Of a stretch of DNA of 33,958 nucleotides, positions 10,506 through 15,015 are shown one piece after another. The stretch is taken from positions 1 through 33,958 of the IMG/VR virus record IMGVR_UViG_3300042351_000045, one strand, 5' to 3'. A program made the position numbers and the translations under genes. Positions within the stretch are counted from its first letter, which is position 1, and each line of letters starts with the position of its first letter. The notes beneath the pieces were generated by a model, which had not been told where the DNA came from, ran no database searches, and saw only the letters and a list, made by a program, of their open reading frames with translations. This DNA is from a virus.

Positions 10506-10999
10506 TGAATAGACAGAGAGCAATCAAGGGCGATGACTGGACTGGACATGAGTACCAGTATGGGATTGTTTTATCTGAGCATTCTGTTGGATACTGGAAT
10601 ACGAAGTGCAAACTATGTGACAAAGTTCATGTAATGGAAACTCGTTCTTTGCGAGTTGGGGCTAGAAGCAAAAAATGCGAACAATATAGAGCGCCAAACT
10701 GGTCTGGATTTGAGCGTGAAGATGCTATCATGCGTAGGCAGTACGGCATATCAATGGAAGAATTTACTGGTCTTTTGGAATTTCAAGGCGGTGGATGCGC
10801 TATTTGCTCTAAGCCCATTGAAGAACTCCGTAGACGCATGAACATAGACCATGACCATAAGAATGGCAAAGTCCGTGGCATTCTTTGCTCTGGATGTAAT
10901 ACAGGATTGGGGCATCTTGGGGATAATATAGAAGGTCTTAAAAAAACCTTGTATTACCTTGAGAACACGCCTTTTGATGAATACGCTAACGCACGATAG
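10505..10999 (+). CDS. Free-standing HNH endonuclease, recombination endonuclease VII type
   Basis: A 164-residue nuclease. Cys98-x2-Cys101 and Cys128-x2-Cys131 form the structural zinc site, and the DHDH at 115-118 followed by KVRGILCSGCNTGLG is the T4 Endo VII/HNH beta-beta-alpha-metal core. An extra Cys pair (CKLC, 35-38) with KKC near 58 suggests an N-terminal DNA-binding zinc finger, as in homing endonucleases. A TTG lies just before, but the ATG at 10505 overlaps the stop of the adhesin gene (TGATG) and is preferred. It interrupts the fibre-chaperone block, which suggests a selfish insertion rather than a resolvase role. Confidence 0.85.
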   Translation: MNRQRAIKGDDWTGHEYQYGIVLSEHSVGYWNTKCKLCDKVHVMETRSLRVGARSKKCEQYRAPNWSGFEREDAIMRRQYGISMEEFTGLLEFQGGGCAICSKPIEELRRRMNIDHDHKNGKVRGILCSGCNTGLGHLGDNIEGLKKTLYYLENTPFDEYANAR

Positions 11000-11007
11000 G
11001 AATTATT

Positions 11008-11451
11008 ATGCCTTTTAAACTCGGAACTCAGACTATCCAACTGGATACTCCTTTTACACACAACGACATTCAATACCCTGCAAACTGGATTCGTCTAGCT
11101 ACAGAAGAAGATAAGGCTGCTATCGGTCTAGTCTGGGAAGCTGACCCTGTTCGTGCGGATGACCGTTTCTATTGGGATGGCGATATTAACAATCCTAAAG
11201 ACATCAACCAAGTTAAAGCTATGCTGATTGCTCAAAGTAAAGCTACTGCTGGTTCTATGCTGGCTCAATCAGACTGGAAGATTATTCGTGCTACTGAAAC
11301 TGGCGTTGCAGCAAGTGCTGAAACATTAGCTGAAAGAGCCGCTATTCGTACAGCGTCTAACGACAATGAAACAGCTATCAATGCTTGTACTACTGTGGAT
11401 GAGCTGGCTGTACTGCAACTAACTTTCCCACAGAAAGAGAATGAGGCATGA
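11008..11451 (+). CDS. Tail fibre assembly protein/chaperone
   Basis: A 147-residue protein with an N-terminal segment describing a beta strand unit (FTHNDIQYPANWIRLATEEDKAAIG), a conserved RFYWDGD motif, a Gln/Lys-rich helix and the SMLAQSDWKIIRATE core. The C-terminal helical region is RAAIRTASNDNETAI followed by ACTTVDELAVL. This arrangement matches DUF4376-like fibre chaperones that help trimerise fibres encoded next to them. Its natural partner is probably the adhesin at 8067-10505, now separated by the HNH gene. It overlaps the next gene through ATGA. Confidence 0.75.
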   Translation: MPFKLGTQTIQLDTPFTHNDIQYPANWIRLATEEDKAAIGLVWEADPVRADDRFYWDGDINNPKDINQVKAMLIAQSKATAGSMLAQSDWKIIRATETGVAASAETLAERAAIRTASNDNETAINACTTVDELAVLQLTFPQKENEA

Positions 11452-11654
11452 GCGACATTAACCCTGTAGAGTACGGTAAGTTAGTCAATGCCGTTGAGAA
11501 CCTAGAGCATAAAGTAAACTCAATGGATGCTGACATTAAACGATTAGTGGCTATGGCAGAGCGCAGTAAAGGTTCTCTGTGGGCTTTGATGGGTGTTGCC
11601 TCAGTTGCTGGTGCTTTTATCAGCTATCTATCTGAATTGTTATTTAAAAAGTAA
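11448..11654 (+). CDS. Small coiled-coil protein with C-terminal membrane segment
   Basis: A 68-residue protein with an amphipathic coiled coil (residues 12-40, VENLEHKVNSMDADIKRL), one hydrophobic span (about 43-64) and a basic LFKK tail. The layout resembles XhlA-like and other small accessory membrane proteins of phages. It could assist lysis, but the recognisable holin is at 20035, so its role is open. Start overlaps the previous stop (ATGA), indicating coupling. Confidence 0.7.
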   Translation: MSDINPVEYGKLVNAVENLEHKVNSMDADIKRLVAMAERSKGSLWALMGVASVAGAFISYLSELLFKK

Positions 11655-11657
11655 ACC

Positions 11658-12005
11658 ATGAGACCACATTCAATCGGTAATAACTTAACAGCGAATACGC
11701 TGACTACGTTATTTACTGTGCCAACGAGAAACATGGCTATTACGCATGATATTTTAATGACTAATAGAGGTGCTGGTAATAAACACATTTCTATTTATTG
11801 GTATGACAAAAGCACAAATACTAGCATTGAGGTAGTCCATGAAAGAACTATATCGGCTAAGACTTCTGCTACTATTGATAGTAATTTTTCTTTTGTAATG
11901 GACGAAGGAGATGAACTTCGTGCTATATCGGAAACAGGTTCAACCATGACAGTTGTAGCATCGTTTGATTTAGACGCTAGGTCAACTGTACAAAACTTTG
12001 CTTAA
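11658..12005 (+). CDS. Small beta-rich virion-type hypothetical protein
   Basis: A 115-residue protein predicted mostly beta by its alternating pattern (MAITHDILMTNRGAGNKHIS, then IYWYDKSTN, TVVASFDLDA). Similar small proteins appear in tail-gene clusters of T7-like and uncultured podoviruses and look like decoration or fibre-associated subunits. It has no cysteines, signal peptide or membrane span. It starts three bases after the preceding gene, with only a weak ribosome site. Confidence 0.7.
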   Translation: MRPHSIGNNLTANTLTTLFTVPTRNMAITHDILMTNRGAGNKHISIYWYDKSTNTSIEVVHERTISAKTSATIDSNFSFVMDEGDELRAISETGSTMTVVASFDLDARSTVQNFA

Positions 12006-12014
12006 AGGATTAAG

Positions 12015-12161
12015 ATGCCACTCAAAGCAGGTAAATCACAAAAGACTATCTCCTCTAACATCCGTAAAGAGATGAAGGCTGGGAAGCCACAGAAACAGGC
12101 TATCGCAATCGCTTTAAGCAAAGCAGGACAATCTAAACCACAACCCAAGAAAAGGAAGTAA
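12015..12161 (+). CDS. Very basic small protein, DUF6496-like
   Basis: A 48-residue ORF with an AAAGGA site before ATG 12015. The pattern [20 protein letters not shown], then [15 protein letters not shown], matches the small DUF6496-type proteins widespread in phages. It has 12 Lys and 2 Arg against one Glu (net about +13). It is the first of four consecutive basic genes. A nucleic acid-binding or DNA-compacting role is inferred from charge only. Confidence 0.8.
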
Positions 12162-12163
12162 TT

Positions 12164-12307
12164 ATGCCAATGGTCAAAGACAAGAAGTTCCCTTACACAG
12201 CTAAGGGTAAGAAAGAAGCTAAGTCGTATGCTAAGAAAACAGGAGCAAAGATGACTACTCCTAAAGCTAAACCAGCTAAGAAGATGGGCGCAAAGCGTGG
12301 CTACTAA
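12164..12307 (+). CDS. Very basic small protein (KKFPYTAKG family)
   Basis: A 47-residue ORF beginning MPMVKDKKFPYTAKGKKEAK, rich in Lys/Ala and ending KRGY. It has about 15 Lys and 1 Arg against 2 acidic residues. Similar short proteins occur beside DUF6496-like genes in many uncultured phages. It starts two bases after the previous stop and overlaps the next gene by 11 bases. Likely disordered; function unknown. Confidence 0.78.
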   Translation: MPMVKDKKFPYTAKGKKEAKSYAKKTGAKMTTPKAKPAKKMGAKRGY

Positions 12308-12449
12308 ACCGGGTTTGTATGCAAATATTGCAGCCAAGAGAAACCGTATCAAGGCTGGCTCTGGCGAGAAGATGCGTAAAGTAGGCGCTAAAGGCGCTCC
12401 TTCGGCTAAAGACTTTAAAGATGCTGCTAAGACAGCTAAGAAGAAGTAA
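12297..12449 (+). CDS. Very basic small protein with GTG start
   Basis: A 50-residue ORF starting at GTG 12297, inside the end of the previous gene. The sequence begins (M)ATKPGLYANIAAKRNRIKAG and continues SGEKMRKVGAKGAPSAKDF. This is a very recurrent short phage protein, usually starting MATKPGLYANI, which supports the GTG start. It has about 12 Lys and 3 Arg against 3 acidic residues. It joins the next gene by TAATG. Function unknown; probably binds nucleic acid. Confidence 0.78.
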   Translation: MATKPGLYANIAAKRNRIKAGSGEKMRKVGAKGAPSAKDFKDAAKTAKKK

Positions 12450-12694
12450 TGCCTAAGAAAGAGTTTCAGAACCCCAAAGGCGGTTTAAACCAGAAAGGTC
12501 GAGATTATTACAACAAGACCACTGGTTCTAAGCTAAAGCCTCCCGTGTCTGCTAAAGAGGCTGCAAAGTCGCCTAAAGCGGCTGCACGGCGTAAGAGCTT
12601 CTGCGCTCGTATGGGCGGTGTTGCTGGTCCAATGAAGGACGATAAGGGTAGACCAACCCGTAAAGCATTAGCATTAAAAAAGTGGGATTGTTAA
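12449..12694 (+). CDS. Basic protein, DUF6321-like
   Basis: An 81-residue protein resembling the DUF6321 family: an N-terminal NPKGGLNQKGRDYYNKTTG, a central VSAKEAAKSPKAAARRKSFC, then ARMGGVAGPM and a C-terminal TRKALALKKWDC. Two cysteines (about 52 and 81) flank the GGVAGP segment. About 22 Lys/Arg against 6 acidic residues. This is the last of the four basic genes. The promoter for the tail-tube genes follows directly. Phage copies are common; their role is not established to my knowledge. Confidence 0.82.
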   Translation: MPKKEFQNPKGGLNQKGRDYYNKTTGSKLKPPVSAKEAAKSPKAAARRKSFCARMGGVAGPMKDDKGRPTRKALALKKWDC

Positions 12695-12701
12695 AAAACA
12701 C

Positions 12702-12730
12702 TTGCTTTTTTTGTAAAAGTATGATACACT
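12702..12730 (+). promoter_or_regulatory. Probable sigma70 promoter with extended -10 before adaptor gene
   Basis: TTGCTT (12702-12707) and TACACT (12725-12730) are 17 bases apart, and TGA precedes the -10 hexamer as an extended -10 (TGn). The predicted start point (about 12737) lies only three bases before ATG 12740, so a transcript from here would lack the GGAAAG ribosome site at 12731-12736 and be almost leaderless. Confidence 0.5.
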
Positions 12731-12739
12731 GGAAAGAAT

Positions 12740-13396
12740 ATGCCATCTAAAAACTACTTAGAATTAACGAATGAAGTGTTAATCCGACTGCGTGAGCCAG
12801 AGGCTTCCTCAGTGTCGGATAACGCCTATGTTAAGCTGATTGCAAAGTATGTAAACGATTCTAAACGGCAAGCAGAGGATGCTTATAACTGGAACGCTTT
12901 GTCGGAAACATTATCAGCTACAACCACTGCTGATGTGTTTAACTATGTCTTAGTTGGTACTGGTCAACGCTTTCGTGTGATTGATGTCTTAAACGATACC
13001 AGTAATTTTGTTTTACGCAACGCCACTACCCGCTGGATGAACGACCAGTTCTTAATTGCGACTCCAGCTAAAGGCTCTCCTTATTATTACAACTTTAACG
13101 GTACGAACACCGACGGCGATACTCAAGTAGATTTATACCCTATTCCTAACGGCGTGTACAACATTCGTTTTAACGTCATTCGACCACAAGTTGAATTAGT
13201 TTTAAACTCAGACAAACTCTTAATTCCACATGAGCCTGTTATCCTTGGTGCATTAGCACGGGCGCAAGCAGAGCGTGGTGAAGATGGCGGTGTCCAGTCC
13301 GCTGAGACATATGCACTGTTTAAGCAAAGCCTTGCGGATGCGATTGGTTTAGAGTCTGCACGGTACTTTGAAGAAGAAGCGTGGTATCCAATCTAA
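12740..13396 (+). CDS. Head-tail adaptor, T7 gp11-like (tail tubular protein A)
   Basis: A 218-residue adaptor that forms the ring between portal and nozzle. The N-terminus (YLELTNEVLIRLREPEAS), the region KYVNDSKRQAEDAYNW and the C-terminal LARAQAERGEDGG segment match gp11-like adaptors of podoviruses; T7 gp11 has a similar length (196). The gene immediately precedes the nozzle gene, as in T7, and its stop overlaps the next start (TAATG). A GGAAAG ribosome site lies three bases before ATG. Confidence 0.85.
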   Translation: MPSKNYLELTNEVLIRLREPEASSVSDNAYVKLIAKYVNDSKRQAEDAYNWNALSETLSATTTADVFNYVLVGTGQRFRVIDVLNDTSNFVLRNATTRWMNDQFLIATPAKGSPYYYNFNGTNTDGDTQVDLYPIPNGVYNIRFNVIRPQVELVLNSDKLLIPHEPVILGALARAQAERGEDGGVQSAETYALFKQSLADAIGLESARYFEEEAWYPI

Positions 13397-15015
13397 TGGC
13401 TGGCGCACTCCAAACTTCCTCCATTGCCGCACCGGGTTTCTACGGACTCAATCTCCAAGAGTCTAGTGTAACGCTGTCTTCTGGCTTTGCATTAAAAGCA
13501 CAGAACTGCATCATTGACCGATATGGTCGTATTGGCGCAAGACGTGGTTGGACTCCACTGAACGCTACGAATAGCGACTTAGGTTCTAATGCAATTGAAG
13601 CAATGATGGAGGTGGTAGATGGTGGAAGCAATACAATTATATCAGCAGGTAATAACAAGTTATTCACTGGTCGCACAACACTTACACAACGTCTTGTCCG
13701 AAATGCAACAAATTCAGCAAACGCTACTTACACGATAACAGGTAACAACTGGCAGATGGCTGCAATGCCATATGGCGATGCTAACGACTTTCAGCCCCAT
13801 GCGTACCTTGCACAAGACGGACACCCGATGTTGGTGTGGCACGAGTTACCAGTCTCTGGTGGAGACCCACACGACCACGATAGCGGTACATTTGGATTCC
13901 AACAAGTAGGTGATGTAGGTACACTTCCAGCGAACCACACAACTGGGTCGTTTAAACCCAATGCAGTGTTCTCTGGCTTTGGTCGTATCTGGGTGGGTAA
14001 CATTGTAAATGACACACACACTGTGTACTTTAGCGATTTGTTGCGTGGTACTGATTTTACAACAGGTTCAGCTGGCTACTTAAATTTACAAGAAGTATTC
14101 CCTAACGGAGATAACATTGTCGCTATCTCAGGACATAATGGATTTTTAATTATCTTTGGTCGTAACAACATTGCTATCTATGCAAACCCAATCGACACTG
14201 GCGCATTAGTTCTTCAAGATATTATTTATAACGTAGGCTGTATTGCTCGTGATTCAGTTCAAAACATTGGCACAGACATCTTGTTCTTGTCTGATAGCGG
14301 TGTGCGTAGTCTTGCACGAGTGATTCAAGAGAAGTCACTACCAATGAATGACTTGTCTAAGAATGTCCGTGATGACTTAATGACAAACGTATTTTCTGAG
14401 ACTGACTTAGGTAAGGTTAAGAGTATTTACCATGACAGAGATGCTTTCTATCTACTGTCGCTACCTACAACGAAGTTTGTCTATTGCTTTGATACTCGTT
14501 CACGGATGCAAGATGGTTCTGCTCGTGTCACAATATGGGATAACTTAGAGCCAAAGTCTTTCTGCATTACTCAAGCTAAAGAACTCTTAATCGGTAAGCC
14601 TTCTTACATTGGTAAGTACTTTGGTCATTCGGATAATGGTGTGACATATCGGTTACAATATTACACCAACTACTTTGACTTTGATGCCTCTACTAAACTA
14701 AAGATTCTGAAGAAGATTGGTTGGGTCTTAATTGGTGGTACAAACCAGTCAGTTGCAGTTAAGTGGGGTTTTGATTACACCGAAAACTATCAAGCAACTA
14801 CATACTTCCTTGACACTGCTGTTGTGTATGAATATAACATCGGTGAATATAACATTGCAGAATACAGTTCTGGTATTGTCTTAGACCGTTTCTCAGTCAA
14901 TGCTGGTGGTCAAGGAACAATCATGCAGTTAGGTTTAGAGGCAGACATCAACGGTAATCCTATGTCAATTCAAAAGATTGACGTTGCCGTTAAAGCAGGT
15001 AAAACACTCGTTTAA
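13396..15015 (+). CDS. Tail nozzle protein, T7 gp12-like (tail tubular protein B)
   Basis: A 539-residue beta-rich protein forming the end of the short tail tube. The N-terminal APGFYGLNLQESSVTLSSGF and the segment NCIIDRYGRIGARRGW are typical of this class, and repeated beta-propeller-like strands follow (FSGFGRIWVGNI, ISGHNGFLIIFGRNNIAIY, TDILFLSDSGVRSL). It is shorter than T7 gp12 (about 794) but close to compact podovirus nozzles. The frame is open from a GTG at 13381, but ATG 13396 overlaps the adaptor stop (TAATG) and is preferred. Confidence 0.85.
   Translation: MAGALQTSSIAAPGFYGLNLQESSVTLSSGFALKAQNCIIDRYGRIGARRGWTPLNATNSDLGSNAIEAMMEVVDGGSNTIISAGNNKLFTGRTTLTQRLVRNATNSANATYTITGNNWQMAAMPYGDANDFQPHAYLAQDGHPMLVWHELPVSGGDPHDHDSGTFGFQQVGDVGTLPANHTTGSFKPNAVFSGFGRIWVGNIVNDTHTVYFSDLLRGTDFTTGSAGYLNLQEVFPNGDNIVAISGHNGFLIIFGRNNIAIYANPIDTGALVLQDIIYNVGCIARDSVQNIGTDILFLSDSGVRSLARVIQEKSLPMNDLSKNVRDDLMTNVFSETDLGKVKSIYHDRDAFYLLSLPTTKFVYCFDTRSRMQDGSARVTIWDNLEPKSFCITQAKELLIGKPSYIGKYFGHSDNGVTYRLQYYTNYFDFDASTKLKILKKIGWVLIGGTNQSVAVKWGFDYTENYQATTYFLDTAVVYEYNIGEYNIAEYSSGIVLDRFSVNAGGQGTIMQLGLEADINGNPMSIQKIDVAVKAGKTLV

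Follow-up and report, generated by a model that had tools for sequence, protein, structure and literature searches.

Four small, highly basic late genes in an uncultured aquatic phage encode candidate head-associated proteins, one of them a DUF6321 protein

Introduction

The internal head proteins IPI–III of phage T4 are small and basic, are made late, and are presumed to lie inside the head together with the DNA. The cyanophage T4-GC119 protein, which ends in the domain DUF6321 (PF19846), has been called hypothetical (PMC3037559). DUF6321 is elsewhere a domain of unknown function, and neither it nor DUF6496 is named in the literature that we searched. Two further families of small phage proteins, phrog_2423 and phrog_16028, have no known function, and linkage with a DUF6321 protein is not recorded for either. 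Here, we describe a locus in which DUF6321 stands alone, as a protein that we call D, adjoining three other small basic proteins, A, B, and C. The locus lies in the genome of an uncultured aquatic phage, represented by a virus record of 33,958 bases, referred to below as the window.

Results

The four genes occupy consecutive positions on the late strand of the window (Table 1), and their open reading frame (ORF) coordinates bear out the lengths and the tight joining given in a first-pass annotation of this DNA: 2 bases separate A from B, B and C overlap by 11, and C and D overlap by 1. The B/C overlap is retained by nearly all relatives that have the ABCD order. The gene 3′ of the run, which had been taken for a tail tube gene, encodes instead a head-tail adaptor. 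The portal of the window phage is of the P22/T7 type, and among the matches listed, its major head protein is at most ~32% identical to those of cultured relatives. With pI values of 10.4 to 11.4 and a charge per residue of 0.20 to 0.30, compared with a mean of −0.022 (SD 0.041, maximum 0.076) for the other 39 genes, A–D are by far the most basic proteins of the window, and their computed net charges (Table 1) agree with the earlier count of about +12 to +16. Pooled pN/pS values calculated against 18 related loci were 0.31 for A, 0.15 for B, 0.15 for C, and 0.17 for D, which indicates that purifying selection acts on all four and that they are genuine genes. A 116-aa ORF on the opposite strand, lying across the run (12002–12352), was regarded as a mirror image of the lysine codons. 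Scans for promoters and terminators over 10900–13500 gave no excess relative to shuffled sequences. Between the fiber gene and the late small genes, the window also contains a Recombination endonuclease VII/HNH gene (PF02945; 10502–10999) with a TTG start.

Table 1. Coordinates of the four-gene run and of the genes on either side of it in the window
Feature	Coordinates	Strand	Length (aa)	Net charge	Remarks
Protein of unknown function	11658..12005	+	115		Constant upstream neighbor of the run in the window lineage
A	12015..12161	+	48	+13	
B	12164..12307	+	47	+14	
C	12297..12449	+	50	+12	GTG start inside B
D	12449..12694	+	81	+16	
Head-tail adaptor, SU10 adaptor family	12740..13396	+			PF24175, 1.1e-13; constant downstream neighbor in the lineage

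In Pfam profile searches with the four proteins, D alone reaches a family, DUF6321, scoring 98.5 bits against a curated cut-off of 28.5 (3.4e-28), and it matches DUF6321/phrog_4689 along its whole length, including a Cys pair and the terminal W-x-C. A matches phrog_2423 over 47 of its 48 residues (6.8e-18), and C gives a full-length match to phrog_16028 (3.5e-25), with a core of 33 residues (GLYANI..GSGEKMRK..KGAP) that is common to cyanophages, pelagiphages, and roseophages. The match of B to phrog_33179 is weak (E 0.051); B has no matches among 50,697 cultured phage records, and its family is confined to relatives of the window phage. It had been proposed that two of the four proteins resemble DUF6321 and DUF6496 and that the other two represent recurrent phage families. 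The first proposal stands for D, but none of A–D gives a profile match to DUF6496 (PF20106) at E ≤ 1; the second is borne out by A and C but not by B, which recurs only in the window phage's relatives. Hybrid proteins encoded at two loci (L012 and L070) match both DUF6496 and phrog_2423, which makes DUF6496 a relative of A rather than the family of A: the second half of A is common to both ("KQAIAIALS", pattern "[RK]xQA[IV]AIALSxA"), whereas the N-terminal half of A differs. B and A are themselves merged into one short gene in several relatives (L053, L058, and others), the product having the start of B, the second half of A, and sometimes the tail of B.

Gene order was surveyed in 159 sequences including the window, some of the loci being one contig counted twice. 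The orders found were ABCD (29 sequences), ACD (22), BACD (18), AD (10), and AC (8), besides others. Most multi-gene loci have the same upstream 115-aa gene and downstream adaptor as the window, the adaptor giving 73 matches in related loci at 30 to 100% identity to that of the window. Because the flanking genes are shared, the survey draws largely on a single deep lineage, and a functional unit cannot be proved from it alone. The idea that the four genes form a coinherited module is therefore only partly upheld: an ABCD, BACD, or ACD order is present in most multi-hit loci of the relatives, but the four-gene unit is bound to that lineage. The full run is specific to the lineage and is built around a core whose genes are loosely linked and shared horizontally.

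Outside the lineage, the distance between C and D was determined in the listed cultured or fosmid podovirus records in which both were found (n = 22). In 22/22 the spacing was ≤735 bp, with a median of 41 bp, and the records come from several podovirus groups; C precedes D in 9 pelagiphages, and D precedes C in the 13 others, mostly cyanophages. The sites that C and D occupy among head genes vary from phage to phage: C-D sits between scaffold and capsid in HTVC168P and directly 5′ of the portal gene in MEP301, D-C sits between capsid and tail tubular protein in P-SCSP1d, and D-C-A sits between terminase and portal in ctNMl277. At two loci (L180 and L195), C and D are fused as single ORFs. C and D also account for the main DNA match to cultured phages in the 4.5 kb around the run (12304–12672), at 68 to 76% identity to pelagiphages, roseophages, and cyanophages whose capsid genes are unrelated or distant, a similarity that fits either horizontal exchange or unusual conservation. 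Among 80 diverse DUF6321 loci drawn from prokaryote assemblies, C was found near D in 13 and A near D in 6, and no A, B, or C was close to D in 62. Of the A and C hits, 19/23 lay within 1.5 kb of D, compared with 37% expected, a clustering that was reached in 0 of 200,000 simulations. C recurs in association with D, and A does so more loosely, but the genes need not occur together and their order varies. Elsewhere in the region, a segment at 11052–11200, within the gene at 11008–11451, shows 76.5% DNA identity to the Methylophilales phage MEP301 at a place where little else resembles cultured phages.

For D, AlphaFold2 predicts a compact helical fold (pLDDT 92.1, pTM 0.72; helices at residues 15–25, 42–56, and 71–79) rather than an unstructured chain of the protamine type. 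For A, a helix-loop-helix is predicted (residues 9–21 and 26–36, core pLDDT ~93) together with a loose basic tail. Foldseek searches of the Protein Data Bank (PDB) with predicted D and A gave no significant match and recognized no DNA-binding fold, and PDB sequence searches with A, C, and D returned nothing significant. The viral fold matches of D were other DUF6321 proteins or proteins containing DUF6321. Two BFVD entries labeled "Ferritin/DPS" and "AAA" contain a DUF6321-like fold and are regarded as leads only. Cys52 and Cys81 of D are both present in 49 of 51 sequences and both absent from 2, neither ever occurring singly, a pattern of sequence conservation that suggests a disulfide or a shared metal site.

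DUF6321 is nearly always found at the extreme C terminus, whether of stand-alone or of larger proteins. The T4-GC119 protein of T4-like cyanophages, encoded between the terminase genes, terminates in this domain. The T4-GC119 proteins at L160:670–3219, L175:2756–4243, and L262:42662–44215 are chains of basic, lysine-rich Cys-pair modules (for example, KDACYHKVKSRY..CRK and CWDGYEKKG..NC) joined by linkers, with DUF6321 last. Sites of the form [IL]xE[AGS] were enriched in one of the cyanophage fusions (p 0.02) and not clearly so in others, and because this enrichment is weak and inconsistent, T4-type protease processing of the fusions is not claimed; no prohead protease was recognized among the window head genes scanned. 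One ORF (L203:3486–5117) encodes a cytidylyltransferase that carries DUF6321 at its C-terminal end, and cytidylyltransferase/NMNAT-type enzymes occur in three cyanophage virion lists (PMC9602691, PMC9146016, and PMC10665884). In Acinetobacter phage AP22, A forms the N terminus of a DUF2213 head-maturation protease, and loci that contain A only adjoin portal, GroES-like, scaffold, protease, and head morphogenesis/minor head genes, as well as endolysin genes.

Several other DUF6321 occurrences and neighbors were recorded. A fusion with a dihydrolipoamide-dehydrogenase-like, pyridine-nucleotide oxidoreductase in a Pseudomonadales assembly (L247:3672–5192) is probably a host/phage chimera, since the gene is truncated and runs into phage sequence close to the end of the contig, and it was not used as evidence. 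An isolate of Nonlabens xiamenensis has a DUF6321-like gene (L236:1321–1548) on a contig of 188 kb; this gene, which may be part of a prophage, is among the few matches outside metagenome-assembled or single-cell genomes. The S-SZBM1 protein gp082 (L173:3493–5616) starts with a DUF3008-like stretch that scores below the Pfam cut-off and has an S-adenosylmethionine lyase domain within a lysine-rich chain.

Published virion data include two DUF6321-bearing proteins. The gp137 protein of cyanophage S-CREM2 (108049–109521), which carries DUF6321 (3.5e-10) and is acidic overall, was detected as ORF137 in CsCl-purified virions by 4 unique peptides at 4.1% coverage (PMC10665884, Table 3). In S-SCSM1, SSCSM1_29 carries DUF6321 (3e-22), and its product is given as "virion protein" in MK867354.2; the depositors' paper reports 45 virion proteins from mass spectrometry (PMC9602691), and 48 features of the record bear this label, so that label and published list agree nearly but not exactly. 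Both proteins are large fusions, and with 4.1% coverage in gp137, the peptides may lie outside the DUF6321 domain. The DUF6321 protein gp084 of S-SZBM1, equated with tag 192 by aligning gene order and lengths, is absent from the virion list (PMC9146016, Table 1) in which its neighbors 195 and 190 are present. Judging by record labels, the DUF6321 protein gp114 of Syn9 is not labeled structural. The main text of the P-SCSP1u cryo-EM paper mentions neither gp14, gp15, nor mass spectrometry, and the literature searched held nothing useful on virions of phage phiEap-2. Small lysine-rich proteins are under-sampled by trypsin, so absence from virion lists is weak evidence.

Discussion

The reading that we tentatively favor, at somewhat less than an even chance, is that A–D are late head-associated nucleic-acid-binding proteins, probably packaged inside the virion. 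Association with the head is argued for by the placement of the A, C, and D families among portal, scaffold, capsid, terminase, and adaptor genes of unrelated phages and by the fusion of A to the AP22 protease. Packaging is argued for by the two cyanophages in whose purified virions a protein with DUF6321 has been reported and by the fusion of D to the cytidylyltransferase; it is weakened by S-SZBM1 gp084 and Syn9 gp114, which are not among reported virion proteins, and by the fact that the reported proteins are fusions, none being a stand-alone A, B, C, or D. That no DNA-binding fold was recognized in predicted D or A also weighs against this reading. The proteins would be made late as a small basic set tied to head assembly, and charge-driven binding of DNA or of the inner capsid surface would package them with the genome. 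Stand-alone A–D, like the virion-reported DUF6321 fusions, would be packaged, and DUF6321 at the C terminus of larger cargo proteins, such as the cytidylyltransferase, may additionally serve to target them to the head or to anchor them to DNA. The first-pass annotation had offered packaged DNA-condensing proteins as one possibility; the two DUF6321-bearing virion proteins give packaging partial support, but D is predicted to be folded, not protamine-like.

The head-gene neighborhood, seen in most of the phages examined, is also a point in favor of A–D being prohead assembly factors, for instance scaffold partners or portal/terminase cofactors, that leave before the particle is complete. Proteins of the head-maturation protease class, to one of which A is fused, are normally lost when the head matures; this fusion and the two virion lists from which DUF6321 proteins are missing (S-SZBM1 and Syn9) point the same way. 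Set against this are the two DUF6321 proteins reported in purified virions and the charge of A–D, because a basic charge is unusual among phage scaffolds, and we place assembly factors on the unlikely side. A role in the cell, as late nucleic-acid-binding regulators or anti-host proteins that bind RNA or the nucleoid or shut off host transcription or translation, would suit proteins that are small, basic, and strongly conserved, one of which (A) is a predicted helix-loop-helix. The genes, however, lie mostly among head and packaging genes rather than early host-takeover genes, and the head protease fusion and the virion-reported proteins also count against such a role, which we judge unlikely.

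The four genes could also lack any shared function, being unrelated basic genes that accumulated at a tolerated spot in the late operon and are linked by common descent only. Most co-occurrence does fall in one lineage with the same flanking genes, and the 62 of 80 diverse D loci without a nearby A, B, or C agree with this; but descent alone sits poorly with the close spacing of C and D in either order in the 22 listed podovirus records, with their fusion in single ORFs, and with the clustering of A and C hits beside D beyond chance, and we find it quite unlikely. That A–D are chance ORFs in lysine-rich sequence, as their shortness, low complexity, and the antisense ORF across them might suggest, is so improbable that we reject it: pN/pS points to selection in all four frames, the proteins are conserved as far as unrelated phages, and the predicted fold of D is confident.

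A broader form of the packaging interpretation seems to us quite doubtful: aquatic phages would use DUF6321, A, and C interchangeably as basic head-packaging modules, either alone, as internal proteins bound to DNA, or attached to enzymes that they load into the particle for delivery at infection; the portable head-loading role of DUF6321 draws on one clean fusion, that to the cytidylyltransferase, and on the two virion reports. DUF6321 is present in 542 cultured phage records, mostly of cyanophages, and judged among the matches listed, the A–D families are abundant in viral contigs. If packaged, they would make up a class of internal proteins that is widespread among phages infecting Prochlorococcus, Synechococcus, and SAR11, and they might help to show which enzymes these phages inject.

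Compared with described DNA-condensing proteins (histone-like, Dps, and protamine), predicted D and A differ in that a known DNA-binding fold was not recognized in either. A–D resemble IPI–III of T4 in being small, basic, and late, but no sequence relation between the two sets was found, and no prohead protease was recognized among the head genes scanned in the window. The D-bearing proteins of T4-like cyanophages are encoded between two terminase genes. In the T4-GC119 protein of cyanophage S-SM1 (SSM1_115), DUF6321 forms the C-terminal domain, and the difference lies in architecture: T4-GC119 is a long chain of several basic Cys-pair modules, whereas the window phage encodes its small basic proteins as four separate genes.
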